IMG/VR virus record: IMGVR_UViG_3300044957_000341
Location: 1 to 56,415 of that record
Strand: one strand, 5' to 3'
Length of the DNA stretch: 56,415 nucleotides
DNA from: a virus
The notes beneath the pieces were generated by a model. It saw nothing but the letters and a program-made list of their open reading frames with translations. It made no database searches and was not told where the DNA came from. Made by a program: the position numbers and the translations under genes. This document shows positions 8,345 through 54,077 of this stretch, piece by piece; positions within the stretch are counted from its first letter, which is position 1, and the number at the start of each line of letters is the position of its first letter.

Positions 8345-8360
8345 AAAAATACATTATTTG

Positions 8361-8369
8361 TATTTATAA
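8361..8369 (+). promoter_or_regulatory. TATTTATAA motif before the 1683-aa baseplate gene
   Basis: Ends 9 nt before the ATG at 8379. One of several copies at a 9-10 nt spacing. Confidence 0.45.
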
Positions 8370-8378
8370 AATAAAAAG

Positions 8379-23599: not shown

Positions 23600-23761
23600 A
23601 TGGGAAGGAAAAAAATTGAAGATCATGAAAAAAAAGTAAAAATTGGTGTATCTGTTGATCCTGATTTACCAAAATACTTTAAAGACAGATCAATAAATAT
23701 TTCTTCCCTTGTTAATAAATTATTAAAAGACTATGTAAAAAATGGAAACAAAAATTTGTAG
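23600..23761 (+). CDS. Small ribbon-helix-helix-like protein before the HNH gene (53 aa)
   Basis: A short frame from ATG 23600 to TAG 23759-23761. After a basic N-terminus comes a strand (KVKIGVSVDPDL), a first helix (PKYFKDRSIN) and a second helix (ISSLVNKLLKDYVKN). This is the order and spacing of CopG/Arc-type ribbon-helix-helix DNA-binding domains. Its last 20 bases overlap the HNH gene in another frame, so the two are probably one mobile unit, with this protein regulating or targeting the endonuclease. The 53-aa length equals that of the minus-strand RHH-like gene at the left end, though the sequences differ. Confidence 0.65.
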   Translation: MGRKKIEDHEKKVKIGVSVDPDLPKYFKDRSINISSLVNKLLKDYVKNGNKNL

Positions 23762-24440
23762 TAAGTGTAGTCAAGAAAAAAATATTTGCGAATTCTACAA
23801 AAGAAAAGAAACTAAAGATGGACATCGATCTGATTGTAAATGTTGTTTTAATGAAAGATCTTCGGAATATAAAAAAAACAATCAGGAAAAGATTAGACAG
23901 ATGCGTAAGAATTACTTTCAAAAAAACAAGCAATATCTTTTATATAAAAAACAGATTTGGAGAAAAAGTAATCCTGGAAAGTATAAAAAACAAGTTAAAG
24001 ACTATTGGGATAAAGTTAAAGATGTTCAAATTGAAAAAAAGAAAATATGGATCAACAATAATCGAAAAAAATATAACGATTATTGGAAGAATCGAAAAAA
24101 ACAAGAACCTGAATTTAAATTATTAACCGGTATGAGGTCAAGATTATCAGGATATTTAAAAAAACTCAACATTACAAAAACAAACAAAACTTTCGATATT
24201 GTTGGATGCACACCTCAAGAACTAAAAGAAAACTTAGAAAAACAATTTAGTAACGGTATGACTTGGGAAAATAGAGTAGAGTGGCATATAGATCATATAA
24301 TTCCATTATCTTCTGCAAAAACTGAAGAAGAACTTTACAAGTTATGCCATTATACTAACTTACAACCTCTGTGGGCTGTTGAAAATATGAAAAAAGGAAA
24401 CAAAATTGTTGAATCATCGAATGGTATGATAAATGAATAA
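23742..24440 (+). CDS. HNH homing endonuclease
   Basis: A free-standing mobile nuclease that cuts DNA and promotes its own spread. The N-terminus carries a zinc-ribbon-like cluster (CSKC near residue 6 and CKCC near residue 33). The middle is strongly basic (residues 40-125). The C-terminal nuclease motif is seen as EWHIDHIIPLSSA, then NLQPLW and ENMKKGNKI, the standard H-N-H layout. It lies between uvsX and the 5' nuclease gene, overlaps the RHH gene upstream and the exonuclease start downstream (ATGAATAA), and is Lys/Asn-rich compared with neighbours. Most likely a recent insertion. Confidence 0.9.
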   Translation: METKICSKCSQEKNICEFYKRKETKDGHRSDCKCCFNERSSEYKKNNQEKIRQMRKNYFQKNKQYLLYKKQIWRKSNPGKYKKQVKDYWDKVKDVQIEKKKIWINNNRKKYNDYWKNRKKQEPEFKLLTGMRSRLSGYLKKLNITKTNKTFDIVGCTPQELKENLEKQFSNGMTWENRVEWHIDHIIPLSSAKTEEELYKLCHYTNLQPLWAVENMKKGNKIVESSNGMINE

Positions 24441-29979: not shown

Positions 29980-30438
29980 ATGTCTACAGGTATTTCATAT
30001 GGTATAACATTTCCTTTCAGAGATTCATTTGTTGGTAGATACTTAGATGTTTCTAGCACAAATGAAGAAGAAATTAGAAATTCTTTAATTCATTTGATCT
30101 TAACTAAGAAGGGTACTAGATATTATTTACCTGATTTTGGGACAAGACTCTATGAGTATATTTTTGAACCATTAGATGGACCAACATTTTCTGATATTGA
30201 GGCCGATATTAGAGAATCAATCGGAACATATATGCCAAATTTATTGGTTACAAGTGTTACGATAGAACCGGCATCGGCGGGGTTGGAAGATAAAGGGTAT
30301 ACCGTAAATGAATTTAAACAAAGAGAATTTAAAGTACCTAACATATCACAATTAGAACACACCGCAAAAATTAAAATAGATTATAGAGTAACAAATCAGG
30401 CGTTTGAAAGTAGTGATTTTGTTATTATCAATATTTAA
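29980..30438 (+). CDS. Baseplate wedge protein (T4 gp25 / P2 gpW family)
   Basis: A small wedge protein that links baseplate and sheath and helps start sheath polymerisation. 152 aa; T4 gp25 is 132 aa. The family pattern is clear: NEEEIRNSLIHLILTKKGTR followed by YLPDFGTRLYEYIFEPLD, then a helix (FSDIEADIRESI) and the strand VTSVTIEPA. The gene starts tail block B and is followed at 6 nt by the gp6-like gene, the same order as in many myoviruses (gpW/gp25 then gpJ/gp6). Confidence 0.93.
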   Translation: MSTGISYGITFPFRDSFVGRYLDVSSTNEEEIRNSLIHLILTKKGTRYYLPDFGTRLYEYIFEPLDGPTFSDIEADIRESIGTYMPNLLVTSVTIEPASAGLEDKGYTVNEFKQREFKVPNISQLEHTAKIKIDYRVTNQAFESSDFVIINI

Positions 30439-30444
30439 TGATAT

Positions 30445-32286
30445 ATGGCAGAAAAAAAGATTTCCTATACGACAAGAGATTTTCAAGGGATAAGAACCGA
30501 ATTGATAAATTTCACAAGAACTTATTATCCTGAGTTAGTTCGAAATTTTAATGATGCTGGAATTTTTTCTGTACTATTAGATCTTAACGCCGCGGTAACT
30601 GATAACCTACAATTTCAAATTGATAGAAGTATACAAGAAACCGTATTACAATTTGCACAACAAAGATCATCAATATATAACATAGCGAGAACATATGGTC
30701 TAAAAGTACCTGGTCAAAGACCATCGGTTGCTTTAGTCGATTTTTCAATTACGGTTCCTGCTTTTGGAGATAGAGAAGATTTAAGATATTGTGGTATATT
30801 AAGAAGAGGTTCTCAAGTGAATGGTGCGGGACAACCATTCGAAACCGTATATGATATTGATTTTGCATCGCCAATTAACGCTGAAGGAACCCCAAATCGA
30901 TTAAAAATCCCAAACTTTGATTCTAATGGTAATTTAATAAACTACACTATCACTAAAAGAGAAGTTGTTGTTAATGGAATTACAAAGGTATTTAAAAGAG
31001 TTATAACACCTAATGATGTTGTACCATATTTCCCATTGTTTTTACCTGAAAAAAATGTTTTAGGTATAACAAGTGTTTTATTAAAAGACGGAACACAATA
31101 TAGTACAATACCACAACCACAAGATTTTATAACACTTGAACCAGATAGATGGTACGAAGTAAAAGCGTTGGTTGAAGATAGAGTTTTTGTTGAAGATCCA
31201 ACTAAACCATCCGATCAACCTGGTATAAAAGTTGGAAGATACATATCAACATCTCAAAAATTTATTTCGGAATATACACCTGAAGGTTTTTGTAAATTAA
31301 CATTTGGTGGTGGTAATATTTCTGCAGAACAACAATTACGAGATTTCGCCAGAGATGGTAAAGGGTTTGATCTTGCAAGGTATTCTAATAATTTAGGATT
31401 AGGAAGTACATTAAAATCTAATAGCACTTTGTTTATCCAATATAGAATAGGTGGAGGTACTGGAAGTAATTTAGGTATTGATACTATCAATCAGATTGGT
31501 ACGGTTTCTTTCTCTGTAAATGGGCCGTCCGCTAGTGTAAATAGAAGTGTTATTAATAGTCTTAGATGTAATAATGTAACTGCCGCAATCGGAGGTGCGA
31601 ATGCACCAACAACCGAAGATGTTAGACAAATGGTTTCATTTAACTTTGCCGCACAAAACAGAGCGGTGACCGTAAATGATTATGACTCAATACTTAGAAC
31701 AATGCCATCTATTTATGGAGCGCCTGCAAAAGTTTCGATAACCGAAGAGAATAATAAAATAAAAATTAAGATGTTGTCTTATGACACTAGTGGTAATTTA
31801 ACTGATGTAATATCAAACACTTTAAAACAAAATGTTGCAAATTATTTATCAAACTATAGAATGATAAATGACTATATTTCTATTGAAAGTGCTCAACCAA
31901 TAGATTTAGCCGTTGAGTGTGATGTTGTGTTGGATAGCTCAACAACATCAGGCGCGGTAGTTGCAAAAGTAATTGAAATCATTTCTGACTATTTTAATCC
32001 ACTTACAAGACAACTAGGTCAAAACGTTGTTGTTTCTGAATTAAAAAGATTAATCCAAAGTCAAAATGGGGTTATCAGTATTTCAGATATGAAATTTTTT
32101 AACTTAGTTGGAGGTCAATATTCGTCATTTGAAACATCACAAACATATTCGGACCCTTTAACTCGTGAGATACAATTATTTGCTGATACAATATTTGCAG
32201 AACCTTCGCAAATCTATCAAATTAGATTCCCAAATAAAGACATTACGGTTAGAGTCCTTAACTTAAAAACCGTTAGTTTTTCATAG
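30445..32286 (+). CDS. Baseplate wedge protein (T4 gp6 / baseplate J family)
   Basis: Core wedge component that dimerises around the baseplate. 613 aa against 660 in T4. The N-terminus (YTTRDFQGIRTELINF) and the segment NDAGIFSVLLDLNAA with LQFQIDRSIQET are typical of gp6-like proteins. The middle and C-terminal parts carry the J-like features (GGGTGSNLGIDTINQIG, then NRAVTVNDYDSILRTM and VVSELKRLIQSQNGV). Next to gp25, its partner in the wedge. Ends with TAG followed at once by TAA. Confidence 0.92.
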   Translation: MAEKKISYTTRDFQGIRTELINFTRTYYPELVRNFNDAGIFSVLLDLNAAVTDNLQFQIDRSIQETVLQFAQQRSSIYNIARTYGLKVPGQRPSVALVDFSITVPAFGDREDLRYCGILRRGSQVNGAGQPFETVYDIDFASPINAEGTPNRLKIPNFDSNGNLINYTITKREVVVNGITKVFKRVITPNDVVPYFPLFLPEKNVLGITSVLLKDGTQYSTIPQPQDFITLEPDRWYEVKALVEDRVFVEDPTKPSDQPGIKVGRYISTSQKFISEYTPEGFCKLTFGGGNISAEQQLRDFARDGKGFDLARYSNNLGLGSTLKSNSTLFIQYRIGGGTGSNLGIDTINQIGTVSFSVNGPSASVNRSVINSLRCNNVTAAIGGANAPTTEDVRQMVSFNFAAQNRAVTVNDYDSILRTMPSIYGAPAKVSITEENNKIKIKMLSYDTSGNLTDVISNTLKQNVANYLSNYRMINDYISIESAQPIDLAVECDVVLDSSTTSGAVVAKVIEIISDYFNPLTRQLGQNVVVSELKRLIQSQNGVISISDMKFFNLVGGQYSSFETSQTYSDPLTREIQLFADTIFAEPSQIYQIRFPNKDITVRVLNLKTVSFS

Positions 32287-35300: not shown

Positions 35301-38126
35301 AACTCTTTCGTTAACTTGACAGGTGCTAGTTTTAATCAGTTTCAGACCAACTCAATAACTGGTGTAACATTTACGGGACAAACCACTGTAAATGTTGGAT
35401 ACGCCAACTTTTCAAATATTGACCAAACTTCTAACTTACAAGCCCAAATTGTTATTACCGCAACTACGGAGACAGCAGTACCATCATCGATACCGGGTAT
35501 ACCGGGAGTGAACGGGTATGAAGAAAGTTACTTAAAATACCCAACGGACATTGAATACTTCCAAGTCATTACTGGTATGACCGTGGGTAGTTTCTTATCT
35601 ATGTCAAATAACACTACGCCAGGTTTATTTCCTAACGAATACTTACTTCATAGAATTAAGTATGTTACACCTGAATGTGGTATATTACCCGGATATGGAG
35701 GACCTAATTATAACATCAGAACCACTTCACCGGCTTTACAATATATGCCAGGTTACCAAAATTTTGAAGTCGTTATTATGATTAGAGGGGTTGATCCACA
35801 CACTCAAAAACAAAATATTTCATATGATTTGTCTAGAATTTTTGGTTTGACAAGTTTTGGTTTAAATCAAAATTTAATTGTTAGTGGTAGTTATTATTTG
35901 AATGTACCTATACAGGCTTACCCGACAACTCCAAGAAAACCAAAATCACACATTACAGGAAACAATCAGGGTCATAATTTGTATTTTAATTCATATTCAT
36001 TACAAATAAGTGGGCCGTCAGGTTCTAACCCTAATTTTACGGCATTTACATCCACATTACCATATTATTATTTGGCGACTGATGATAATATTTATTCATC
36101 TTACGCACCTTCAGGCAATGTTCCTCCAAACTCTAATAATTTGGCGTCACCAACCAACCCAATTGTATTTCCGTCTCAAAGTACCTTACCATATTATCAA
36201 ACTCAAATAAATCCACCATCACCATTATCGGTAGGTGCTGGTGGAGGTGCTTATTTAAAATCAAACACAAATTTAAATTTATTTGGAATAACTATAGTTA
36301 ATAATCCATTTTCATATCTTGCTCTTGGAGAGGATAGATATTATAACAACGCACCTCCACTTACGAACTTCAATAGACTATATTATTTATATTCACCTGT
36401 TTATTACGGAAACACATCTTTAACTCCAGTAAACTTTACAGATAGGAATAGAATTGTTATGAGAAGTGATCGTATTCCTACCTCAACGAGAGTTGAAAAC
36501 GGGGTCGCATCAACAACGGGATATGGTTTACATCAAAATAATAATTTTACATTTTATTCTGCGAATGGAGAACAAGCACCTGAAATAATTCAGGCGGGAT
36601 TTGACTCAACTGATGGATCACAGGCGGATCTTGACCCCATTACATCTGCTTTAACCGACACACTCCAATGTGAAAATATGGTATCATTACAATGTTATTC
36701 TGGTAGTGGAAATAATGTAGGTATTATACCAGCAGATCAATGCTCAATGCCTCCGGGTCGTGTTGTTAAAGGTTGTTATTGTTTATTAAATAAAGGAGAT
36801 GAGGTTGCAAATAAAAGATGGTATTTAATTGGAGACGCATTTAAATACGACTCAGCTTTATTATTAGAGTGGAAAGTTAGATTTACCTTAAACTTTGCTG
36901 CGTGTAGAGGAGTATTTTCACAAACGTTTCAAAATAATTGGGTAAATGGTGTGTTATATATGTTTTCTTTCAATACTAGAAAATTATTTGGTTTAGATCC
37001 AAACAATCCAAGTTACACTTCAAGAAAATTTTATAAATCGTATTGTGATGATGTTATAATTCATAATGATATTACAAATAATTTCTATTACAGAAGTTCA
37101 CCATGGAATGAGTCAACACAACAATTTGTTGGTAAAGAATCCCCAAATACAAGTGGTTTTATACAAGCATTAATAAATTTCCCCGGACCTGCATATAACG
37201 TGAAACAAATACAATTCCCTACAACCGTGGTTGATTTAGGACCAAGAGATCTATTTGTTAATGAAATTTGCTCTAATCCTTCATTTGGTTCTTATTATGC
37301 AAACCAAACAACCTCAACATCATACCAAGACAATTCAGACATATTACAATTGGCCTTCTTATCTAGAATTTTAAATAACACATTCAGACAAGGTATGCAA
37401 CCCGGTATTTTAGGTAATAACGTTAGAGAAGGTATTGGTGTTAGTGAATTTTTTGATAACGATAGAAAGGGTCAAAGAATTGATGGTGATATCGCTCAAA
37501 TGATATCAATCAACTCTGAATGGAAAGTTTCACCTTTTATTGCAGAAAATTTAATTGGTATTACTAACCCAAATTCATACATATATTTTGGAAATCAAGG
37601 CGGTAATGCGAACCAAACTAAACCTGTTTTTGGTGTATTCTTCTCCTCAAGAACCGACGAGTTTAGATATAGAAGAATTATGTCACCAGGGATTGAGACG
37701 TTCAATCAATTACCTTTAATTCAACAATCATTTGGTTACCCTAAATCTCAATTTGTACCAAATTACAAATGGTCATTAAGAAGTGGGTCTAGTATTTTTG
37801 GTAATGAAAATAACAATTGGTATACGGATAGTGTAAACTCGCAAGCAGGATTTTTTCAAAAACAATATCAAGATGTTGATTTTGACACACCACTTGAGAA
37901 ATATAGAACCACAACTACAAAGTTTGGATTCATAAGTAATTTCACGTCAACAAACCCACTATTACCAAACCCTAACCCATTTAACGTTTTACAAGGGGTT
38001 CCAAGTCCTGTCGTAACACCAATTTCTACTTTTGTTATTGGTGCACCATATCATTTTTATTTCGGGTTGGTAAATGGAAATACCGCAGTGGATAAATTCT
38101 ATAAACTATATGTTGCAGACTTCTAA
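32361..38126 (+). CDS. Giant baseplate protein in the gp7 position, with membrane-like helices
   Basis: 1921 aa, position after gp25 and gp6 as for T4 gp7 (1032 aa); residue-level identity to gp7 was not established. The N-terminal 150 residues hold a carboxypeptidase-regulatory-like beta domain (VIVGRVLVNNGFGIPNARVS, later VKTNESGDFMIFGVPLG). Residues about 593-650 contain very hydrophobic stretches (FFVFNIFTNILIFPLLTLLY, WPILKWVLLFLSI), and 700-724 another (YAILTFASSIVYLAF). These look like three or more membrane helices, unexpected in a baseplate protein. Right after, at about 742-755, comes CTTCECEC, a possible metal site. The C-terminal half is beta-rich with many Asn/Gly and aromatic residues, like receptor-facing tail proteins. 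Stop and next start overlap (TAATG). Confidence 0.7.
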   Translation: MPKSYRIRTQVGVDKYINVELDQDFEFLEILSLKLLSEDVYTRFCSDYGVIVGRVLVNNGFGIPNARVSVFIPLEAEDQLNPIIAELYPYQNLSDRNEEGYRYNLLPKDPSYIGHQATGTFPTRADALMDQSYIEVYDKYYRFSVKTNESGDFMIFGVPLGDQTVVMDVDLSDIGCFSLSPQDLIQQGVATEDQVDGASFKTSTNLDSLPQIVNLNFDVDVRPLWGDTDICQIGITRVDFDLTKLANIKIEPTSVFMGSIISTTNDDALRISCKPKNNTGNLCELIAGEGQIMAIRQTINTDSDGYPILEQYNLENNGKVIDGDGSFLVNLPMNLDYVITDEFGQQILSQDPTKGIPTKGKYRFKFKWVNKEQNLTISDIQSNLENLKKEVGIKNQDYSGNFQRAHFLVPNIKEYGWSTYDKDPLQIKKPTTFNYQISANNNIGPTQIIGPVGLQFVSAPNTSSFIIYINGQQYFGDTNQITIPALSSFYIDGIALNTNQPQNFTFTEYPIELYDVYRSYAFSLDWNDYGNTQMIQEAINCEDRFYEFNYNKVYTTALFLDRYKNGIGRAKHLGIKEIDDRTCASTNNTFPVNDIIRNFDPIFFVFNIFTNILIFPLLTLLYVTHFVAFIWPILKWVLLFLSIKFIKDSYQDAAVAIDTAAEAVNDALSLISFTAAGPVIDPGLTPELIKDTLAAIRDAAYAILTFASSIVYLAFITNAIFDFKNGTWRRLNIPRLGFPMITYNDCTTCECECNTAELDDDVTPQSIQDEIDSQIAESGAGSNLQLATPKSFLAPVNSPGSYEISHPNLNQNPIDSNNPDDGNFSCGGLFNDFQSFSYTLQQQDIDVDLVVRANFDFLRIFSGYDILSSTDPIKLTANEKYLLHAPQPFLWAAKKFNGLNQRWFAIPTSVTYPQKLNEFNTRDKYFTNSGTGVGPNRVKVKVNNSPNDFYDQVLVVLANPGTTNSLGIGEFFSFQDPNLSNSFVNLTGASFNQFQTNSITGVTFTGQTTVNVGYANFSNIDQTSNLQAQIVITATTETAVPSSIPGIPGVNGYEESYLKYPTDIEYFQVITGMTVGSFLSMSNNTTPGLFPNEYLLHRIKYVTPECGILPGYGGPNYNIRTTSPALQYMPGYQNFEVVIMIRGVDPHTQKQNISYDLSRIFGLTSFGLNQNLIVSGSYYLNVPIQAYPTTPRKPKSHITGNNQGHNLYFNSYSLQISGPSGSNPNFTAFTSTLPYYYLATDDNIYSSYAPSGNVPPNSNNLASPTNPIVFPSQSTLPYYQTQINPPSPLSVGAGGGAYLKSNTNLNLFGITIVNNPFSYLALGEDRYYNNAPPLTNFNRLYYLYSPVYYGNTSLTPVNFTDRNRIVMRSDRIPTSTRVENGVASTTGYGLHQNNNFTFYSANGEQAPEIIQAGFDSTDGSQADLDPITSALTDTLQCENMVSLQCYSGSGNNVGIIPADQCSMPPGRVVKGCYCLLNKGDEVANKRWYLIGDAFKYDSALLLEWKVRFTLNFAACRGVFSQTFQNNWVNGVLYMFSFNTRKLFGLDPNNPSYTSRKFYKSYCDDVIIHNDITNNFYYRSSPWNESTQQFVGKESPNTSGFIQALINFPGPAYNVKQIQFPTTVVDLGPRDLFVNEICSNPSFGSYYANQTTSTSYQDNSDILQLAFLSRILNNTFRQGMQPGILGNNVREGIGVSEFFDNDRKGQRIDGDIAQMISINSEWKVSPFIAENLIGITNPNSYIYFGNQGGNANQTKPVFGVFFSSRTDEFRYRRIMSPGIETFNQLPLIQQSFGYPKSQFVPNYKWSLRSGSSIFGNENNNWYTDSVNSQAGFFQKQYQDVDFDTPLEKYRTTTTKFGFISNFTSTNPLLPNPNPFNVLQGVPSPVVTPISTFVIGAPYHFYFGLVNGNTAVDKFYKLYVADF

Positions 38127-41906: not shown

Positions 41907-42815
41907 ATGGCAACAGGCAGTTATGGGACGGTAAGAGGTTCAGATGTTAGTCCCGAGGATGTAGAAATTATATTAACATATACACCAAGTAGGGATGATA
42001 CAAATAATTTTATTTTGACAACTTTGAACGCTCAGGATGTTCTAAGACCTTATTTTCATAACTCTGATACTGGAGGCAATGCAAATGTTGAAATATTAGG
42101 TGGTTTATACAATTTAAAATTACCGGCAAATCAATTTAATAAATTAGGTATTTACACCCTTTTAATAAGACCCGCCGAAATTAGAACGGTGATTAATGAT
42201 TGTGGTGTTTTATCTGCATTACCAAATGTTAAAGGAATTGTTATTGATATTAACCAAGTCCCAATTGAATATAGAAATAAATTCGTTAATCAAGGTTTAG
42301 TTGGGTTTAGAGTTGAATATTTAAATCCTAGTGGAACCAAGATACCAAACTTTTTTAGAATTATAACCTCATCTTTTTATTGTGAACCTGTTGTTCAAAA
42401 TTTAACAAACACAATTCAAAAATCGATTAGATATCGATATGTTGATGGTGCGACTAATTTAATTTTCTGTACACTATCACCATCATCGTCACCAACAAAC
42501 AAACCAAATGCGACACCATATATTGGTCAACCCAATCAAAATATTATTATTACAAATACATACTTTAATCCAATAACTACTGAAATAGAAATTGTTGACC
42601 AAGACATCTCAACATTGGCAATTGCGTTGTATGGTAATCAAACTAAATCTATTGATGACGGAATCTACACCATTTACGATTCTAATAATAACATATATAA
42701 ACAATACAACCTTTATGAGATTAAAGACCAATTCAATACTTTATTGTATGAGGTTAGACAAGATAGGGGTACTAACATAGATTTCAGTAAAAGTTTTACT
42801 AATATAACGGCATAA
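41907..42815 (+). CDS. Tail protein of unknown family (302 aa)
   Basis: Not recognised. Compact mixed protein with LPANQFNKLGIYTLLIRPAE and VKGIVIDINQVPIEYRN, followed by a Ser/Pro-rich spacer (SPSSSPTNKPNATP) at about residues 191-205 and a beta-rich end. The spacer suggests two separately folding parts. It shares a TAATG junction with the 996-aa gene downstream. A collar, adaptor or fibre-attachment role is possible but only inferred. Confidence 0.55.
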   Translation: MATGSYGTVRGSDVSPEDVEIILTYTPSRDDTNNFILTTLNAQDVLRPYFHNSDTGGNANVEILGGLYNLKLPANQFNKLGIYTLLIRPAEIRTVINDCGVLSALPNVKGIVIDINQVPIEYRNKFVNQGLVGFRVEYLNPSGTKIPNFFRIITSSFYCEPVVQNLTNTIQKSIRYRYVDGATNLIFCTLSPSSSPTNKPNATPYIGQPNQNIIITNTYFNPITTEIEIVDQDISTLAIALYGNQTKSIDDGIYTIYDSNNNIYKQYNLYEIKDQFNTLLYEVRQDRGTNIDFSKSFTNITA

Positions 42816-45805
42816 TGGCAACACAAAAATTTACCTGTCCACCACAAAGTGCTAGCGGTCAAGGAACATTCTCTGACAATATAGTTGGATTACAACTAGT
42901 TGGTGGAGGTGGTTTTACACAGGCTAATTTCGAGTTCACAACATCAATTTCAGAAAAACAAAATAGAAACTTCAACATAGGTACTTTTTCGGATCCAATG
43001 AGTTTGAAAAGTATGAATATTGAAGGTCTATTAGAGGCAAGAAATATTCTAACAAACAATTTTCAAGTATATCCCAATTATGATTTATCACAAGTTACTA
43101 ACTTTACAGAATATGGTTCATTATCTAAAAGGTTATCAACATCTGTTATCAAAATTATTAACTATTTTCCTGCGGCTTTAGAAATATCACCTGTAAACTC
43201 TAAATTATTAAATGTCGAAACCGCAATAAATGCGACTTATGATGTTGTTGATAATGAAACACAATTTGAAATAAAATTAACATCAATCAATAACCCTTTA
43301 GATATAGACTTCTCAATTGATGCAACAAGAAATTTAGTTTTACAAGAAATTCCTGTTTCACCACTAAGAGACATGACTACCGAATATAAAAAATATTCAT
43401 TATTTATTAGACAACAAGAATATCCTGTTAATTTCCTTTATCCTACTGATAATAACTCAATAACATTAAAGTTAATTGTTGAAGGAAATCCTTTTTCGGG
43501 CAACTCAATTTCTTACGAATATTTGGTAATTAGACCTAATAATATTGAGGTTAACAAAGTTTTTAATTATAGTTTAGATCCTGTTGAAAACTTCCTATTA
43601 AATAGAAATGTAAATCCAATATATACCGCAAGTTTTAGAGTTCCTATTGAAAATGAAGATGGGACTTATGTCTTTACAGAGCAATACGCAACATTCCCAC
43701 TTAATGGTATTTGGAACTTAGACATCCAGTCTAATGCGTTTGATAACTACCTTCAAAGACTAAGTGATTATGGTATTAGTTTAGATGAGTATAAAACTAA
43801 TTTGATATCAAGATTTTTAACCACGGCAGCATTAAAAGAATTTGACACGACCGATCAAAAGTTTGAAAAAGTTTTACAAATATATGGTAGAAGTTTTGAT
43901 GAAACAAAAACATTCATTAATGCTTTGGCAAATATGAATAATGTCAATTATATTGTAAAAAATGACATTCCATCACAACTATTGAAAAATTTGGCAGAAA
44001 CTTTAGGTTGGAAAACTAATATATCCCCAATAACTAATGAACAATTATTAAATAGTGTATTTTCACCAACAACTAACACATTTTCTGGTTTATCTAAAGG
44101 ACAAACTCCTGATGAGTTAAACTATCAATATTATAGAAATTTAATTTTAAATTCTGCATACCTTTTCAAATCTAAAGGTACTAGAAAGTCCATTGAGTGT
44201 TTGTTAAAACTAATTGGAGCGCCTGAAGCTTTAACTGAATTTAATGAATATGTTTATGTTGCAGATCAAAGAATCAATATGAGTGATTTTGAGCAACAAT
44301 ATAGACAAATCACAGGAGGCACATTTACACAACAATTTCCGTCATTACAAACAAGCAATGTATTTTCAATACAGGGAATGCAATATACTGGTTTTACAAC
44401 TAATAGTATCACGGTCGATGTCACAACAACTAAAGATGACTACCCCGTTGACATTTTTGGGTGTCCTCAAATGCCAAGATCAAGTGAGAATTACTATTAT
44501 CAAATTGGTGGTGGTTGGTTCGAATCCACACCACAACATAGAATGCCGGCAGTAACTAATATTACTAATAGTGTTTTTACAGGAAATAACCCTGACTTCC
44601 AAACCACCTTATTACCATTTAATTATGGAGAAGAATACCTTCAAAGGTATAGAGAGTTTCCTTATATGAATTTAGGGTATAGACTACAAAAAATATCAGA
44701 CAATAAAAAAAGTTGGTATGACAATCAAGGAATTTTACGACAAAATTTTGATGGTGGATTTGATGCTTATTACACAGCGTCTGAAGATTGTTTGGTATTA
44801 AACGTAAAAAATGTTGATATATTTATAAATCCTGCTCAAGGTTTGGTTTATGATGTATGGTCAATGTCTAAACAATACAATTTCCCAATACCTGAACAAG
44901 GTTTGAATTACGTTCCACCAACACCTTGTTATATATCAAATCCATATCCAAAACGAGGGGGTATTGATTGGACTGAAATAGTCCCAAAACCAAAACAAAA
45001 AACATTTTTTGAATTTGCTCAAACTTTTTGGTATAACATGATAAATGTTAGGAATCGTCAGTTTATTACTGATGGGAAAACTGGAGGTTACCCAACATTA
45101 CAATCGATATATTGGAAATATTTGGAGTCACAACAATTAGCGGGAATACAAAATGATAATTTTACATATCAAACAATGATCGATTATGTAAATGGGCTAG
45201 GAACATATTGGATAAATTTAATTGAACAAATGGTTCCTGCCACGACTATTTGGACTACTGGTATGAAGTTGGAAAATTCAATTTTCCACAGACAAAAATT
45301 TGTTTGGAGAAGACAAACAGGTTGTAAATTTGTACCTGTACCATGTAAACCATGTAGTATTATTACCCAACTTTACACTTATGATTGTCCGGCACAAACA
45401 ATAGAGTGTGGAATATTTCCATGGAATAATGATCCAACTATAGTTTCGTTTGGTTATATTTTAAACCAAACATTACAGGAATATTACCAATCTACAAATA
45501 TAAATTTTTCAGATTGTTTAGGTACTACCATAATTGCAAATTGGTTTGTTGATCTTAGAATAAACGGATCGCCCATATATCAAAACCAATTTTTAACAAC
45601 TTACGGAGCTATAAATGCACCGACGCAACAACAATGGTTGTTAGCGTTAGAAGATGGTTTGTCTAGTTTACAAGTAGACGGATATAGTTATGATATAGAT
45701 ATAGAAAATGAAACCGTAACGGTTTTTAATAATAATTGTACTTCAACATTTGACGATTTTCAAATCAATGTTGGAATAGACTTTCAAGTTTTATGTAACG
45801 GATAA
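42815..45805 (+). CDS. Large tail protein, possible gpI-like fibre attachment (996 aa)
   Basis: A 996-aa structural protein. Residues about 440-475 (YLFKSKGTRKSIECLLKLIG, preceded by YRNLILNSA) resemble the part of P2 gpI-like tail proteins with a K-S-K-G-T-x-x-A/S-I-E-x-L-L pattern, which connect the baseplate to fibres. The C-terminal part has a WYNMINVRNRQF segment and a Cys-rich stretch (CKFVPVPCKPCSII) followed by more Cys residues. No membrane segments. It is coupled by TAATG on both sides, between the 302-aa tail gene and the SprB-like fibre. The gpI link rests on one motif and on position. Confidence 0.55.
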   Translation: MATQKFTCPPQSASGQGTFSDNIVGLQLVGGGGFTQANFEFTTSISEKQNRNFNIGTFSDPMSLKSMNIEGLLEARNILTNNFQVYPNYDLSQVTNFTEYGSLSKRLSTSVIKIINYFPAALEISPVNSKLLNVETAINATYDVVDNETQFEIKLTSINNPLDIDFSIDATRNLVLQEIPVSPLRDMTTEYKKYSLFIRQQEYPVNFLYPTDNNSITLKLIVEGNPFSGNSISYEYLVIRPNNIEVNKVFNYSLDPVENFLLNRNVNPIYTASFRVPIENEDGTYVFTEQYATFPLNGIWNLDIQSNAFDNYLQRLSDYGISLDEYKTNLISRFLTTAALKEFDTTDQKFEKVLQIYGRSFDETKTFINALANMNNVNYIVKNDIPSQLLKNLAETLGWKTNISPITNEQLLNSVFSPTTNTFSGLSKGQTPDELNYQYYRNLILNSAYLFKSKGTRKSIECLLKLIGAPEALTEFNEYVYVADQRINMSDFEQQYRQITGGTFTQQFPSLQTSNVFSIQGMQYTGFTTNSITVDVTTTKDDYPVDIFGCPQMPRSSENYYYQIGGGWFESTPQHRMPAVTNITNSVFTGNNPDFQTTLLPFNYGEEYLQRYREFPYMNLGYRLQKISDNKKSWYDNQGILRQNFDGGFDAYYTASEDCLVLNVKNVDIFINPAQGLVYDVWSMSKQYNFPIPEQGLNYVPPTPCYISNPYPKRGGIDWTEIVPKPKQKTFFEFAQTFWYNMINVRNRQFITDGKTGGYPTLQSIYWKYLESQQLAGIQNDNFTYQTMIDYVNGLGTYWINLIEQMVPATTIWTTGMKLENSIFHRQKFVWRRQTGCKFVPVPCKPCSIITQLYTYDCPAQTIECGIFPWNNDPTIVSFGYILNQTLQEYYQSTNINFSDCLGTTIIANWFVDLRINGSPIYQNQFLTTYGAINAPTQQQWLLALEDGLSSLQVDGYSYDIDIENETVTVFNNNCTSTFDDFQINVGIDFQVLCNG

Positions 45806-47994
45806 TGGGATACATTGCAATATACGACTTATCGATAACTGGAGATTGTTCAAACACAGGTTCAGGTGGTTTTTCATTTAGTATTACTGGAGATAGCGGA
45901 CCAACTTGGTTAGTTTACGATATAACATTAGGAGGAACATTACCAACTTCTGCGGCTACTGATTATTATGAAGTAACAGGATTATATTCGAACACGTATT
46001 TTATTGACGTACAGGACTCTGTTGATAACCTACCCATTGTAATAAATATTTCATCAGGCACAACGGTTTCTGTTTTGTCGAGTGATACCACTTGCGGTTT
46101 GGATAATGGATCAATAACTGCGGCGACTCAATATGTTTATGGTCAATCTTTTTATTATTTGTATGATGGATCAAATAATTTAATATCCACAGGTACGACA
46201 AATGACTTGTATTTTGAATTTTCTAATTTAAGTGCCGACACTTATTATGTTATTGCCGATGATGGAGGCGGATGTACCGGAAGTACTTCATCGGTTTTAA
46301 TTCAACCATCAGTACCTTTTGATTTTGGATATTACGTTGTTAGTGATTCTAGTTGCTTCGATGAAGGAAATGGAAAAATATTCATAACAGGACTAACCTC
46401 AATAAGCGATTATGTAATAACATGGTTATCTGACGTTAACGGGCAAACTGGATCAACAATAATAGGATTAACATCAGGCGTATACCAAGTTGAAATACAA
46501 GACCCAAACCTTTGTATTACATCAAAATCTATAAATGTACCGATAGTTGACGTTATTGGTTTGGGTGCATTTTTTGTAACACCAAGTAGCGAATGTTTTA
46601 TAGATGACGCAATAGTTAACGTCGTAATTACAGGAGGTACCGCACCATTTTATTATAGTGGATCATCAGGACAAGTTGGAATATCATTTGCAACTTCATT
46701 TACTTTTACAGGTGTTTCGGCCGGTGATTTTGCGGTTAACGTTACCGATGCGGGATTGTGTAGTTTTTATGCTCAAACATCAGTTTTAAACCCAAACACG
46801 TTTTATCAAGTCGACATAAACACCACAAATTCTAATTGTTCATCAAATAATGGGACAATTCAAATAATTGTTGATCAAGGTAATCCACCCTTGTCAACTT
46901 TTAATTATAGTGTGTCAGGAGACTCAGGTTATTATCAATCAATTAGTTTTGGAAATCCAATTCAAACATTCAATGGATTAGGTTCGGGTAATTATATTAT
47001 TACGGTTTCTGATGACAATGGGTGCACTTTTACGGGAACCACATCAATAACTAATGTTTCTTCATTTTCAGTGACGGCAAATACAACAGGAACTACGTGT
47101 GGTTTCAATAATGGGATTCTCGAAATATTAGTGTCAACTGGTGGGACATATCCATATTCATTTACATTAGTAGGCCCACAAGGAGACTCACAAATTAGAA
47201 ATAATAATTTAGGCGTTTTTGAAAATTTACCACCTGGAAATTATGATCTCATAGTTTCTGATAGTAGTTCCCCAACATGTAATGAAGAGTCTTTTGTTTT
47301 TATATCATCATCAGATCGAGTAAGTTTTGACTTTTACGTTAACCAACCTGTTTTTGGTGGTGATGGTAGAATTAGTGTATATATTACAAGAGGAACACCA
47401 CCTTTCACATATAATTGGAGTGGTGATGTTGGTTCACAAACAGGTTTAGTAATTACTGGAGCGTCATCTGGTGAGTATAGTTTAGAAATCACCGATAGTA
47501 ATGGTTCTGGTCTAAAAAAAGATGTGAAATTATTTGGGACTAAAAGTGTTTCCAATTATAGAACGTTTACAATTTGTGAACAAACATTTGAAAGTGTTAA
47601 TACCGTCACAAAAAGAGGTATGAGACAAATGTTTTGGGAAGGTTTTGCAGATTTAACTAGCGGTGATACAAATTGTATATTAACATCCGCGGATTTTATA
47701 ATCGTTGCCAGCGTTGATGCAGAAACCAAAGAAGAAATTTTTTATAACTCATCGGGATTTACAGATTACCCAGCAGATTCAATTTGGGCAAATACAATTA
47801 TTGATGTTTTAAGTACTTTTCCTGGTATCTCTAACGTTGTTGTTGATATTGAGACCAACAAAGTTACAATCACAAACGATTGTGGAGAAATGCAAAAAAA
47901 TTGTGAAAACGAAACCGTAAATATTTTGAATAACACACCAATAATTGTTTATCTAAAAATAAACTACGATATTGCTTGTGTAAGTTGTATTTAA
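45805..47994 (+). CDS. Tail fibre with SprB-like repeats (729 aa)
   Basis: Residues about 1-560 hold about seven diverged repeats of some 75-85 residues with the SprB repeat pattern: a Cys start (TTCGLDNGSI, NSNCSSNNGTI, GTTCGFNNGIL), a G-G-T-P-P-x-x-Y/F core (ITGGTAPFYYS, TRGTPPFTYNWSG) and a closing L-x-x-G-x-Y-x-x-x-V-x-D (GSGNYIITVSDDNGC, SSGEYSLEITDSNGS). SprB repeats are known from the gliding adhesin of Flavobacterium and relatives. The last 170 residues are a different domain (ICEQTFESVNTVTKRGMRQM, then Cys-rich end). Likely a host-recognition fibre. Start is coupled to the previous stop by TAATG; a small decayed gene follows one base after. Confidence 0.75.
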   Translation: MGYIAIYDLSITGDCSNTGSGGFSFSITGDSGPTWLVYDITLGGTLPTSAATDYYEVTGLYSNTYFIDVQDSVDNLPIVINISSGTTVSVLSSDTTCGLDNGSITAATQYVYGQSFYYLYDGSNNLISTGTTNDLYFEFSNLSADTYYVIADDGGGCTGSTSSVLIQPSVPFDFGYYVVSDSSCFDEGNGKIFITGLTSISDYVITWLSDVNGQTGSTIIGLTSGVYQVEIQDPNLCITSKSINVPIVDVIGLGAFFVTPSSECFIDDAIVNVVITGGTAPFYYSGSSGQVGISFATSFTFTGVSAGDFAVNVTDAGLCSFYAQTSVLNPNTFYQVDINTTNSNCSSNNGTIQIIVDQGNPPLSTFNYSVSGDSGYYQSISFGNPIQTFNGLGSGNYIITVSDDNGCTFTGTTSITNVSSFSVTANTTGTTCGFNNGILEILVSTGGTYPYSFTLVGPQGDSQIRNNNLGVFENLPPGNYDLIVSDSSSPTCNEESFVFISSSDRVSFDFYVNQPVFGGDGRISVYITRGTPPFTYNWSGDVGSQTGLVITGASSGEYSLEITDSNGSGLKKDVKLFGTKSVSNYRTFTICEQTFESVNTVTKRGMRQMFWEGFADLTSGDTNCILTSADFIIVASVDAETKEEIFYNSSGFTDYPADSIWANTIIDVLSTFPGISNVVVDIETNKVTITNDCGEMQKNCENETVNILNNTPIIVYLKINYDIACVSCI

Positions 47995-48253: not shown

Positions 48254-49246
48254 ATGGACGATTTGATTTTTGTTACGGCACAACCTGATGTGCCATACTT
48301 TCATTGGCAAATTCGTCTTTACGTACACAATTTCATTAATAAAGGTATTAACCCAAAAAACATTCACGTATTATTTTCCATACCAGAACAAAATGTAGAG
48401 CCTAGTGATAATGCGATTGAGTTTTTAAAGTTAGGAATACAGGTACATTTTTTTAAAGACGACAGAGACAACAAACATTATATTCCTAGTATAAAACCAT
48501 ATTTAATAAGCAAGTGGATTCAGAGAAACAAAAATCAAGGTAAGTTATTTTTCCTGCACGACGCCGATATAATTTTTATAAAATTACCAAATTTCGAAAA
48601 TTTAATTAATGATGATGTTCTATATCTATCGGACACAATTGGTTACATTGGATATGATTATTTGAGTAATTGTTCTAAGAATTATGAAACTAAATTTGAT
48701 AGTTGTAAGAAAGAAGAGTTGATAGACATAATGTGCGGTGTTGTTGGTATTGATAAAGATGTAATAATTAAAAATCAAAAAAATTCAGGAGGAGGTCAAT
48801 ACATTATAAAAAACACTACATATGAGGTGTGGGACAAGATATATAAAAATTCAAATGAATTACATTCTTCATTAATTAAATTCCAAAGAAAATACCCAAT
48901 AAATTCAGGACAAATACAATTTTGGACTGCAGAAATGTGGTCACTATTATGGAATTTATGGTTAATAAATAAAAAAACAAAAGTTACCACTGAATTAGAT
49001 TTTTCATGGGCCACTGATACAATCGAAGTTCATGAAAAAAAACCAATACTACATATGGCGGGAGTCACGGAAAATTTAAAACACGATAAATTTTATAAAG
49101 GTGATTTTATAGAAAAAAATCCAATAGAACTTTTACAAAGAGACTCAAGATATTTTGATTATATATCAAAAAACAGCTCAACTATCAAATATATTGACAA
49201 CATGAAAGATTACATAAAAAAACTAAATAATGGATTATTTATATAG
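48254..49246 (+). CDS. Glycosyltransferase-like protein in the fibre locus (330 aa)
   Basis: Probably transfers a sugar from a nucleotide sugar to a protein or glycan. The D-x-D metal/nucleotide-binding motif is seen at residues 103-105 within KLFFLHDADIIFI, preceded by an N-terminal alpha/beta part (FVTAQPDVPYFHWQIRLYV) typical of GT-A folds. A C-terminal region with QFWTAEMWSLLWNLWLI and LHMAGVT resembles the acceptor side of plant and bacterial hydroxyproline/peptidyl glycosyltransferases, at pattern level only. No signal peptide or membrane helix. Lying between fibre genes, it may decorate the Pro/Thr- or Thr-rich linkers of the virion. It ends 3 nt before the next gene and is more Lys/Ile-rich than its neighbours, which suggests later acquisition. 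Confidence 0.65.
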   Translation: MDDLIFVTAQPDVPYFHWQIRLYVHNFINKGINPKNIHVLFSIPEQNVEPSDNAIEFLKLGIQVHFFKDDRDNKHYIPSIKPYLISKWIQRNKNQGKLFFLHDADIIFIKLPNFENLINDDVLYLSDTIGYIGYDYLSNCSKNYETKFDSCKKEELIDIMCGVVGIDKDVIIKNQKNSGGGQYIIKNTTYEVWDKIYKNSNELHSSLIKFQRKYPINSGQIQFWTAEMWSLLWNLWLINKKTKVTTELDFSWATDTIEVHEKKPILHMAGVTENLKHDKFYKGDFIEKNPIELLQRDSRYFDYISKNSSTIKYIDNMKDYIKKLNNGLFI

Positions 49247-49249
49247 ATA

Positions 49250-51289
49250 ATGGAAAATTGTTATGTTTTATATTCTTGTGATGGTTCCTACGAACCTATA
49301 ATCTCTAACAATCAAGAATTGACTGTTTATACTAATGATTTTGTATCAATAACAATTTTATCACCATTTTTAGAACCATCCACTTGTTTTTATGTACTTT
49401 CACTCGGCAACATTGAATGTGATATCACTTACGACATTGAATTAAACCCTGAAGTTGAATGTGATTGTGGTACATTGTGTTATTTTGTAAATTATGGTGA
49501 CGAAATTTACGATACTATATATGTTAGAAATAATAATAACATTGTTGTTGAACAATCCCCAACAGGATCAACCGTAAATTTTTGTTCGAGAATTTATCCA
49601 TATTTTGATTATAGTGGAACGACTAAAGTTAAAATAATGGGGCAATGTGTTGGAGATGTATGTCCCACAACAATACCAACAATAAAAAAAACCAATGAAT
49701 GTGACGTAATAACCATATTTCCAATGGATGTAACTTGTTTGGTACAAGAACCAACTAATCAATATACTTTCGATGGCTCCGCTCAGTTACTTGTAACAGG
49801 AGGAACACCCCCTTATACAATTTTTTGGGAAATAGGAAGTTATGCTCCCGCATTAACCAATTTGGGTGTTGGTGAGTATAGCGCAAGAGTTGTTGATTAT
49901 TATGGTGATTTTGTAATTGACACTACTTGTGTTTTGACCGCACAGACAATCACATATTCTGCTATGTGTTTTGTATTAGAAAGTAAAACAGAAAATGTCT
50001 ACATAACGTCTGAAGCGGCAGGTGTTAAAAACACAAAACCATATTATGTAATATCGAATGGACTGGTATCATTAGGTTTAGTTTTTTGGGATGGAGAATC
50101 AAATACGTGGGTATTTTGTCAAACATTTGATTGTAATTCTAATCAATATTATGCATATTTGGATAACAATGGTGGTGAGTACCCAACAACAGACACAATG
50201 TTAATGTATGAATGGAAAGAGGGAACCTCAGATGAATATATGTTTGCTGAGTCCTATATTGGTCCTTGCAGTATTCCTGTAATACCAAAAACTTATGGTA
50301 ATCTTTGTTTGTTTTTATTAGTTAGAAGCTCAAGTGATGATCCGTTTGAACAACTTCAATACACAATGAATTTTGTTGGTAACGTTAATGGTCAACCAAG
50401 TTGGGAAAGTGTCGGAGGACAGTATTATTTATATTGGAGTACAGGATCCACACCTGATCAATGGGTAATAACAGGATATTCTAATAATAGCCAAATTGTT
50501 AATTATAGTCCACAAACACCACCAATTAGCAATTGGTTAAATTTTGGTGATAATTCATTATATAATGTTGCGGTGTTAAGCGGAAGTTGTAGTGACGAAA
50601 GTTTAGTTGGTTTTACGTTGACCACAAATAATGCAACTTGTGGTCAATATGGTAGTATTATGATAACACCTTATGGAGGTACACCTCCATATCAATATTC
50701 AATAAACTTCGGTCAAACCTATCAAAATTCACCTTATTTTCAAAATCTCGGACCAGGAACTTATGGTGTTAAAATAATAGATAGTAATGGAGTTGCCGAA
50801 CAATCTTCAGTTACTTTGTTATCGACTCAAGGTGTCACATATCAAATAGGGTTTGGATATACTGTAGGAGGACCATTCCAAATTTCGGCTCCAACATTAC
50901 CTGCTGGAGTTACAATAACATTCGATTTAGTACACTTCGGAACTTTAACATATTATCCGAATACTATTTTAGCCCAACCCGTATATAATAATTTTACAAC
51001 AATTACGGGAATTGGTTTTATGACGCCATTTAGCTCATCAAATAGTTCTTCGTCAGTTATCGGTCCTTGTAGTGTTCCAAACTTAATATTTAAAAATCAA
51101 GAATATAGAATTTACAAAAACACACTGACTATTGGAAGTAATGGTGTAATTAGTGGATTTACAACTAATAATATAATAAATGCACCATCAGGTCCGTGTA
51201 CTTTTGCTGGAGGGGGGTATACATTACAATTAACAAATCTAAAAGTTAATGGTTGTGATTGTTGTTATGTGGAGATTTTACAAACCTAA
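49250..51289 (+). CDS. Modular tail fibre/adhesin (679 aa)
   Basis: Built of modules. Residues about 169-231 and 454-524 are SprB-like units (LVTGGTPPYTIFWE, LGVGEYSARVVD; ITPYGGTPPYQYSI, LGPGTYGVKIIDSNG). Between them are two copies of a Trp-rich module (about 242-341 and 350-450) with the frame G-L/Q-x-S, a WDG...WVF or YWS...WVI core and a closing P/G-C. A related module occurs in the minus-strand gene at the right end. The N-terminal 150 residues are Cys-rich (CDCGTLCYF). The C-terminus ends with a CDCC motif (VNGCDCCYVEIL). A receptor-binding role is inferred. Expressed next to the glycosyltransferase. Confidence 0.65.
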   Translation: MENCYVLYSCDGSYEPIISNNQELTVYTNDFVSITILSPFLEPSTCFYVLSLGNIECDITYDIELNPEVECDCGTLCYFVNYGDEIYDTIYVRNNNNIVVEQSPTGSTVNFCSRIYPYFDYSGTTKVKIMGQCVGDVCPTTIPTIKKTNECDVITIFPMDVTCLVQEPTNQYTFDGSAQLLVTGGTPPYTIFWEIGSYAPALTNLGVGEYSARVVDYYGDFVIDTTCVLTAQTITYSAMCFVLESKTENVYITSEAAGVKNTKPYYVISNGLVSLGLVFWDGESNTWVFCQTFDCNSNQYYAYLDNNGGEYPTTDTMLMYEWKEGTSDEYMFAESYIGPCSIPVIPKTYGNLCLFLLVRSSSDDPFEQLQYTMNFVGNVNGQPSWESVGGQYYLYWSTGSTPDQWVITGYSNNSQIVNYSPQTPPISNWLNFGDNSLYNVAVLSGSCSDESLVGFTLTTNNATCGQYGSIMITPYGGTPPYQYSINFGQTYQNSPYFQNLGPGTYGVKIIDSNGVAEQSSVTLLSTQGVTYQIGFGYTVGGPFQISAPTLPAGVTITFDLVHFGTLTYYPNTILAQPVYNNFTTITGIGFMTPFSSSNSSSSVIGPCSVPNLIFKNQEYRIYKNTLTIGSNGVISGFTTNNIINAPSGPCTFAGGGYTLQLTNLKVNGCDCCYVEILQT

Positions 51290-51311: not shown

Positions 51312-54077
51312 ATGGGATATATAATAAAAAATACATCAGGTTTAGTTAATACGAGAATAACCGACACAGGTAGACAAAAATTGTCTCAAGGAAGGTTTAA
51401 TGTTGCATATTTCCAAGTAGGAGATAGCGAAGTATCATACGATAAATTACCAATTACATACAACCAATCAAATAGTTTTGTCTTGGAACCGGAGTTTAAT
51501 GGACAAAATACCGCAGGAGTACCTCAATCAAACAAACAATATGTTAAGTATCCCTATTTAGTAGATGAAAATGAAACAAATACCTATGGAATTCCTTTTA
51601 TGGATTCTTCAGTGGAATCTGTTTACAATAGGGCGGCAATGAGAGGATTTTTTAGTGGTAATACATTATCCGATCCTATCGATTGGAAGGTTATGGTTGG
51701 TGATTATTATGTTGTTACCGCAAATTATGTAACACAAATGAGTGGGTTAGACGGATCAAATAAACTAACGATCGTACAATCAGAATGTAATGGTCAAAAC
51801 ACAAGAAAACCTAGCGTTGGAGATATAATTACGATATTTTATGATGGAAACGGACAAAAGAATTGTGAGTGTTATAATTTACCGACACCAACACCTACCG
51901 CATCACCATCTGTGACATCAACCTCGATGCCAACACCAACCCCGTCATCGACTGACCCATGTTTGTCACCTACACCTACACCAACCCCAACACAAACTCC
52001 ATGTTTGTCACCTACACCAGTACCTGTATGTCCACCAACACCAACACCTGATTGTTTAACTAATATGTATAGTTGTTATTTAATGTTGACGTATAGAATT
52101 ATTGATTTTTGTGATGATGTTTTAACATTAGATAGAAGTTTACCTGATTATAGAAGTTTTTCACCCGAATGTTTTGCTAGAGTTATAGTATATCCACCAA
52201 ACATGACGGTACAATACGATACTTACACCCCACGACCTCATTGGGCAGACAATGTAATTGATTTTGAATCAATATGTGACATAGACCAATTCAACGTTCA
52301 AGTATGGAATATGAATATTCCGTGGACTGAAAATCCTGCAGGATTAATACCTACATTATTTGAAGGATATACACAATTTGGATCTATAAATTACATAGGC
52401 AGTAAAGAATATTTTGGTTATAATTCATCCAAAGGTCAAACTGATACAGACCCTCCTTACTATTACAATTCATTTGATGAAAAAATCGTTGTAACACCAG
52501 AAGAACAAAAAACAATTTCAATTCTTCATTATACAAATCAAACAATAGATTTCTTTTATGGTGAAAAATTTGCATTACAACCTTATGATAATACAAACCC
52601 ACAAGATACCACAGGACAAGCAAGAAGCTTTAAGGTTCATATTCCTTGGTTAATGTGGCATAAAAACTCAGAATGTTGTTTTGGACAAACTTTTTGGGTA
52701 GATCCTCCAGGATTTGATGGTAAAAACTTATTTCAAGTTCAATATTTGACATCTAAAGTTAATAAAGATATGAACCAACTTGGTCTCAGATATTATAATT
52801 TGTGGGATACCAACGCAAATGATAATGGATTACCAAGTAGAGTTGGTAAAGTATTTCCAGATTCTAAAATTATAATCTTTGATGATGAAGAAATTGTTGC
52901 CGCAATGTCTTACAAGTCAAATAGAAACTTTACGTTACCGGCACCACAAATTTCTTTAATAACCCCAAATGTGTGTGACACAACAACATCAAGTCAAGGT
53001 ATTTTAACAGGAAATACTGAGGCCATGTATATTACGTATGTTTTAGAAAATGATGGTGGTCTTACAAATTGGATTCATTGTAATTATTATTCTTATATTG
53101 TTGGTAACAACAACGAATGTAATCCTGATGTATCTAAAAATGTTAGCGTTAGATTTGGATCTGAATTCCCATGTTTAACACAACCTGGATACGCTCCAGT
53201 CACAACCACAACCACAACATACGCTCCTATTACAACTACAACCACAACAAACACACCGGAACCGATTTGTAAAAGATATCAAATTATTAATAACGATTCG
53301 AGAACTGCAATAATAACCTTTACACCTTGTTGTGACGAAACAAAAACGTCACCATTATTATTACCAGGAATGACTGGAACAATACTTTGCACAAGTACTG
53401 ATATTGACCCGATTTCGTCGGCCGTTACAATAACAAACATAGGTGAATGTACAGGATGTACAACAACACCACTAAAAACCACATCAACACCATTAACAAC
53501 CACAACATATTCACCATTGACAACCACAACAACAACACATTGTCCATTCTGTGATATTGAGTTTGGATTTTGGGCTACAAATTTTAAAATATTGGCTCAA
53601 AAAGTTGTAGCAGGACAGAGACCTGATCCTACAAAGTGGAAATTAATTGATTTTACATCACAAATACAAAGTGGGTTCATAAATGGGTATGTTACTCAAC
53701 CATCTTTAACAGGAACGACATTCATAGTTAGTTCAGAAAATTATACTTCGGCACCATTCTACAATCTAAACAATTATATTGATTTAGTACCTGTAGGAAC
53801 AACAGGAAGAAAATTAAATTTTGGTGATGAGTATTATTTCTATGGTAATATTGAAACTGACATTCAAGCCACTATATATGAAATGAAATATAAAATCAAT
53901 TTGAGACAAGTTGAGTTTAAAAAATCACAAAACCCAAGTTGGGTTGACGGAACCCCTTCGTATATAACAGAAATAGGTTTATTTGACGAGAATAGAGATC
54001 TTTTAGTATTATCAAAATTACAATCACCAACACTAAGACAAGGCATTCAACAATACGTTGTTAAGTTAGATTTTTAG
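51312..54077 (+). CDS. Tail structural protein with Pro/Thr and poly-Thr linkers (921 aa)
   Basis: The N-terminal domain (GLVNTRITDTGRQKLSQGRF, then NVAYFQVGDSEVSY) and the C-terminal domain (YITEIGLFDENRDLLVLSKL) look like parts of one family of phage tail-attachment proteins, here pulled apart by inserted modules. Residues about 190-246 are a PTPTP-type linker with Cys spacers. A 370-residue domain with few motifs follows. Then come two Thr runs (about 630-648 and 717-742, up to six Thr in a row). Between the runs lies a 60-residue Cys module (CKRYQIINNDSRTAI, later CTSTDI and GECTG) that recurs in the minus-strand adhesin. Ends at TAG. Confidence 0.65.
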   Translation: MGYIIKNTSGLVNTRITDTGRQKLSQGRFNVAYFQVGDSEVSYDKLPITYNQSNSFVLEPEFNGQNTAGVPQSNKQYVKYPYLVDENETNTYGIPFMDSSVESVYNRAAMRGFFSGNTLSDPIDWKVMVGDYYVVTANYVTQMSGLDGSNKLTIVQSECNGQNTRKPSVGDIITIFYDGNGQKNCECYNLPTPTPTASPSVTSTSMPTPTPSSTDPCLSPTPTPTPTQTPCLSPTPVPVCPPTPTPDCLTNMYSCYLMLTYRIIDFCDDVLTLDRSLPDYRSFSPECFARVIVYPPNMTVQYDTYTPRPHWADNVIDFESICDIDQFNVQVWNMNIPWTENPAGLIPTLFEGYTQFGSINYIGSKEYFGYNSSKGQTDTDPPYYYNSFDEKIVVTPEEQKTISILHYTNQTIDFFYGEKFALQPYDNTNPQDTTGQARSFKVHIPWLMWHKNSECCFGQTFWVDPPGFDGKNLFQVQYLTSKVNKDMNQLGLRYYNLWDTNANDNGLPSRVGKVFPDSKIIIFDDEEIVAAMSYKSNRNFTLPAPQISLITPNVCDTTTSSQGILTGNTEAMYITYVLENDGGLTNWIHCNYYSYIVGNNNECNPDVSKNVSVRFGSEFPCLTQPGYAPVTTTTTTYAPITTTTTTNTPEPICKRYQIINNDSRTAIITFTPCCDETKTSPLLLPGMTGTILCTSTDIDPISSAVTITNIGECTGCTTTPLKTTSTPLTTTTYSPLTTTTTTHCPFCDIEFGFWATNFKILAQKVVAGQRPDPTKWKLIDFTSQIQSGFINGYVTQPSLTGTTFIVSSENYTSAPFYNLNNYIDLVPVGTTGRKLNFGDEYYFYGNIETDIQATIYEMKYKINLRQVEFKKSQNPSWVDGTPSYITEIGLFDENRDLLVLSKLQSPTLRQGIQQYVVKLDF
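51882..52050 (+). repeat. Pro/Thr linker repeat in the 921-aa tail gene
   Basis: CCAACACCAACACC-type repeats coding for PTPTPT, MPTPTPS, LSPTPTPTPTQTP and PPTPTP units, with a Cys at nearly regular spacing. Confidence 0.85.
53199..53256 (+). repeat. First ACAACC-type repeat (poly-Thr linker)
   Basis: Encodes the two copies of a TTTTTT block separated by YAPI. A similar stretch follows at 53460-53539. Confidence 0.8.
53460..53539 (+). repeat. Second ACAACC-type repeat (poly-Thr linker)
   Basis: Encodes TTTP, TTSTP, TTTTYSP and a final TTTTTT block, flanking the Cys module on its C-terminal side. Confidence 0.8.

Follow-up and report, generated by a model that had tools for sequence, protein, structure and literature searches.

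Through its C-terminal 368 aa, the gliding adhesin SprB contacts its partner SprF and the motor; this stretch binds SprF and suffices for surface movement (PMC9143113). Two further proteins, one cellular and one viral, bear on the repeats of this adhesin: the grappling hook protein A (GhpA) of Aureispira sp. CCB-QB1 and the UniProt entry A0A6J5LD72, a 'SprB repeat' protein of an uncultured Caudovirales phage. The latter is known by its database name, and a literature search confined to open-licence PMC articles gave no paper on it. A full-text search for 'SprB repeat' likewise returned no paper on phage tail proteins, which is weak evidence since only open-licence PMC was covered. In addition, Hoc-like and pb10-like decoration proteins place Ig-like domains bearing a GGTPPY-type motif on phage virions. 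Here, a 729-aa protein with SprB-type repeats is described from an IMG/VR virus record 56,415 bases long, referred to as the window.

Repeats, C-terminal module and gene neighbourhood

PF13573 (SprB) was the sole Pfam family to exceed its curated cut-off in the 729-aa protein (29.7 bits against 28 bits; E 4.8e-7), and it matched all 14 of the 14 aligned orthologs at E 0.001 (best E 8.6e-34). Since the short PF13573 model detects only two stretches, a cellular-repeat profile was built from 995 Bacteroidota repeats of 120 cellular loci. This profile detected seven domains with 168 bits (E 3.3e-50), as compared to 8.2 bits for the best of 200 shuffled 729-aa sequences (Table 1). Repeat 1 scored about 0 bits in the window protein and up to 53 bits in orthologs. 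A profile of enterobacterial-phage Ig domains sharing the GGTPPY motif gave only 15.7 bits and, thus, no Ig-like family was found to fit better. The original prediction of about seven diverged repeats of the SprB class was therefore confirmed by profile search. The motif that it had proposed needs correction: the seventh copy is without the initial Cys, and the exact GGTPPYxY core occurs in no copy, variants including GGTAPFYY, GGTYPYSF and RGTPPFTY. Judged by eye, the N-terminus (MGYIAIYDLSITGDCSNT) is unlike a signal peptide. In the AlphaFold2 (AF2) model, beta-rich domains follow one another in a chain (mean pLDDT 74); with a pTM of 0.28, the overall shape is not predicted.

The repeats do not fill the entire reading frame. 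The last approximately 147 aa form a different, alpha/beta module that is homologous to the last approximately 137 aa of the 996-aa protein encoded upstream (hhalign probability 97%, E 5e-11; reciprocal HMM matches). The order of helices and strands was identical in two separate AF2 models of the two proteins. BLASTP alone gave just E 0.034, and the relationship was detected by profile comparison. The stop codon of the 996-aa gene and the start codon of the 729-aa gene share one base, and one related contig (L105) encodes the upstream protein's module as a free-standing gene (8309-8809). For the 996-aa protein, neither a PDB match nor a consistent PHROG match was obtained, and a fold search was uninformative because its AF2 model was poor outside the module. 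It was absent from a search of 395 Bacteroidota genomes, where an empty answer carries little weight.

Table 1. Positions of the repeat gene, its parts and selected neighbours in the window.
Feature	Position	Strand	Evidence
gp25-like and Baseplate_J baseplate genes	29980..32286	+	Pfam PF04965, PF04865
996-aa tail/baseplate-region protein, near-invariant upstream neighbour of the stalk gene	42815..45805	+	
C-terminal module of the 996-aa protein (aa 860-996)	45392..45802	+	
729-aa protein, predicted tail-fibre stalk: seven SprB-type repeats and C-terminal alpha/beta module	45805..47994	+	open reading frame present
Repeat 1 (aa 14-76)	45844..46032	+	weak here, clear in orthologs
Repeat 2 (aa 95-167)	46087..46305	+	cellular-repeat profile
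Repeat 3 (aa 183-247)	46351..46545	+	cellular-repeat profile
Repeat 4 (aa 263-329)	46591..46791	+	cellular-repeat profile
Repeat 5 (aa 344-417)	46834..47055	+	cellular-repeat profile
Repeat 6 (aa 430-501)	47092..47307	+	cellular-repeat profile
Repeat 7 (aa 517-576), best stretch for Pfam SprB	47353..47532	+	Pfam and cellular-repeat profile
C-terminal alpha-beta-beta-alpha-beta-beta-beta module of the 729-aa protein (aa 583-729)	47551..47991	+	hhalign, HMMs, AF2
330-aa protein between the two repeat genes, phrog_4417	48254..49246	+	PHROG match
679-aa protein with two SprB-type repeats (aa about 171-230 and 462-525)	49250..51289	+	PF13573 30.1 bits; cellular profile 74.5 bits

The assignment to a phage tail gene was supported by the gene neighbourhood. 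The 729-aa gene lies at the end of a tail/baseplate cluster, assigned as such on the basis of its gp25-like and Baseplate_J genes, with the genes for these two, for the sheath and for a T4 gp19-like tube protein (just under its cut-off) upstream. The sheath protein (646-4014) is 1122 aa long and matches known sheaths in its C-terminal part; its extra part holds a Pro/Thr-rich stretch resembling those of fibre extensions. A 1921-aa protein of the tail cluster (32361-38126) has a long hydrophobic stretch, which is unusual for a baseplate-region protein. Elsewhere, a gene that by eye resembles one for an HNH-type endonuclease is inserted among the replication genes (23742-24440).

Downstream, the 679-aa protein, which lies outside the range of the original prediction, carries true GGTPPY cores and is a possible tip or accessory fibre. 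Among 50 relatives that could be tested, 28 encode a homolog of the 330-aa protein downstream of the stalk gene; it had no PDB sequence match. Its PHROG family has no assigned function; a sugar transferase is a guess based solely on the sequence, and the protein might modify the fibre. A 921-aa protein with Pro/Thr- and Thr-rich linkers (51312-54077) is related to phrog_15511, a family of unknown function, and in 24 of 50 testable loci a relative of it is encoded downstream of the stalk gene.

By their tail genes, the closest cultured relatives, Flavobacterium phage immuto and Microcystis phage Mel-JY01, are distant; together with an uncultured 484-kb phage they share 24-36% identity in tail genes. 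No SprB repeats were detected in the nine tail-region proteins of immuto and Mel-JY01 that were scanned. The Bacteroidota host that had been predicted is plausible, short of proof: the cellular relatives of the repeats occur in Bacteroidota, and a Shine-Dalgarno core was present in 0 of the 32 window genes, their leaders being A-rich. Bacteroidota are known for weak use of Shine-Dalgarno sequences, a trait shared with some other groups. TAnnTTTG, the promoter motif of Bacteroidota, was not enriched in the window (96 found, 97 expected).

Repeat number and variable ends in the phage family

At least 574 relatives of the 996-aa protein were found in the scanned viral contigs, and one viral-contig scan yielded 537 relatives of the 729-aa protein. 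Synteny was analyzed for the best 80 of the at least 574 upstream-protein loci, of which 76 had enough downstream sequence. The repeat gene directly followed the 996-aa ortholog in 74 of these 76 contigs, typically with the one-base overlap of stop and start codons. None of three query proteins (729, 996 and 302 aa) found a match in INPHARED by tblastn, and a search with the consensus repeat matched only two uncultured phages.

Repeat number was determined for 107 distinct complete relatives, which were taken from the best-scoring ones and represent the nearer part of the family. Exactly seven repeats were detected in 94 of them, six in 10, eight in 2 and five in 1. In the seven-repeat relatives, the repeats start near residue 15 and span about 557 aa, and the module follows the repeats in all 107 proteins. 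More distant members, which had been found first, likewise carry seven repeats, and their lengths range from 694 to 2083 aa. Identity was even from repeat to repeat across the conserved part, with no hypervariable repeat.

The length of the sequence after the module varied from 0 to 790 aa among the same 107 proteins. A C-terminal tip is present in roughly every second relative; these tips are very varied and often placed behind a Pro/Thr-rich linker. The 57 extensions of at least 80 aa fell into 16 clusters with no similarity detected between clusters, and 43 of the 57 contain TPTP-type linkers. Pfam analysis of nine extensions revealed DUF285 in one, a phosphatidylethanolamine-binding-protein-like domain in another and a weak Hint match in a third. 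One fibre tip consists of DUF285 repeats (L388, 8125-10494; 305 bits), and the tip extension with the weak Hint match (L368, 8131-9183; PF05203, E 0.0044) may point to protein self-processing at the fibre tip. The window protein itself ends with the module and has no tip extension. From the first 14 orthologs, the N-terminus had been taken as the variable end; the larger set varied mostly C-terminally, with one subgroup (L020, L024 and L092) bearing extensions at the N-terminus in place of the C-terminus. Owing to this subgroup, either end of the stalk may be distal. Even conservation of the repeats as opposed to variable extensions suggests a constant stalk with exchangeable tips.

Role and origin of the repeats

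The 729-aa protein is probably a conserved tail-fibre stalk from a contractile-tailed phage whose host probably belongs to Bacteroidota, with recognition residing in appended tips or in the products of downstream genes. The repeats and their constant number, the order of the genes, the module common to both proteins, the varied C-terminal extensions and the absence of a type B sorting domain are observed directly; from these we infer the protein's location on the particle, its stalk role, the site of recognition and the host phylum. The seven Ig-like SprB-type repeats would form a shaft of fixed length. The module behind the shaft, common to the C-terminus of the 996-aa protein, probably serves assembly with that protein, or oligomerisation. 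Host recognition would lie in the variable parts, i.e., for about half of the relatives, in the C-terminal tip that follows the module. In the window phage, where this tip is missing, it would probably be mediated by the downstream 679-aa and 921-aa proteins. If so, uncultured phages harbour a large and apparently undescribed family of tail-fibre stalks whose repeat is best known from Bacteroidota adhesins. A stalk that stays constant while its tips change may serve as a marker for such phages and indicates where host recognition probably lies.

An unlikely alternative places the protein among virion decorations or neck whiskers of the Hoc/pb10 kind, which provide weak adhesion, rather than among tail fibres. 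Hoc-like head-decoration PHROGs were matched by 6 of 14 orthologs, though not by the window's own protein, and the family profile weakly matched structures of phage decorations and neck whiskers (E 1e-4 to 8e-4). However, the stalk gene comes after the baseplate genes, its C-terminal module is common to the adjacent 996-aa protein of the same cluster, and the enterobacterial-phage Ig profile scored low, all of which argues against this alternative.

With a similarly small probability, the repeats themselves bind the host surface, either a carbohydrate or an adhesin, so that the repeat region would be the receptor-binding part. Cellular adhesins do carry SprB-type repeats, and the absence of a tip extension from the window phage's copy would agree with this reading, but the fixed repeat number and the even conservation, set against very diverse C-terminal extensions, argue against it. 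It is conceivable, though quite improbable, that the stalk keeps host-type repeats in order to touch, repeat against repeat, the repeat-bearing adhesin filaments of Bacteroidota cells; the phage would then attach to such surface filaments, of which some move, ahead of binding by the tip.

The relation to cellular repeats was analyzed in a tree of 361 repeats that included 12 sampled phages. The phage-family label required 12 changes on this tree as compared to 75.5 with shuffled labels, and the label for repeat position required 17 as compared to 65.1. Repeats 2 and 4 formed pure clades of all 12 phages, while repeats 1, 5 and 6 were poorly resolved; by identity, repeats 3, 4, 5 and 7 mostly paired with the same position in other phages. 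Since the phage repeats cluster by position across phages, the seven-repeat arrangement is older than the divergence of these phages. Acquisition of the repeats thus appears to be ancient, the tree giving no direction for the original transfer. If the repeats came from cells, they would represent an ancient reuse of surface-protein domains in virions.

In cells, 50 of 198 sampled Bacteroidota genomes carried SprB-class repeats, as anticipated by the original prediction, and all 14 control genomes lacked them. They occurred in several different proteins of one Flavobacterium genome, in many Bacteroidales MAGs, in Saprospiraceae MAGs and in the grappling hook protein GhpA of Aureispira. The repeat is general to Bacteroidota surface proteins and not specific to gliding. 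The T9SS type B sorting domain (TIGR04131) gave no match in the 729-aa protein, while an SprB-like control protein scored 86.2 bits.

Capture or mimicry of SprB by the phage, whether for binding the same partner or for riding on the gliding machinery, had been proposed and is hardly credible. A profile built on a single large SprB-like protein of Flavobacterium (a 5850-aa ORF that includes a type B sorting domain) does give the phage protein 152.6 bits (E 3e-45), but the repeat is common to many Bacteroidota surface proteins, the C-terminal region through which SprB engages SprF and the motor is absent, and the tree together with the near-constant gene order argues against a recent capture. 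Instead, the shaft of seven copies belongs to a large phage family as one of its old, fixed parts and is not a recent copy of SprB.

Comparison with known systems

Hoc-like and pb10-like proteins resemble the predicted stalk in their domain type and motif, and differ from it by the low profile score, their location on the head and their gene context. The closest viral counterpart, A0A6J5LD72 (714 aa), was matched in the viral fold library with 29% identity (E 4.9e-54) and appears to belong to the same family as the 729-aa protein.

GhpA was the best solved fold match of the AF2 model (E 7e-19), and the cellular SprB-repeat profile, too, had its best PDB match there (E 1.6e-24); it was not among the PDB sequence matches of the phage family profile at E 0.01. 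GhpA is a cellular protein of 5898 aa.

SprB and the phage protein are alike in repeat sequence, as reflected by the PF13573 score over the curated cut-off. In contrast to the very large SprB with its dozens of repeats, the phage protein holds a fixed number of seven copies within 729 aa, ends in a phage module without a T9SS type B sorting domain, and is encoded in a phage tail cluster.
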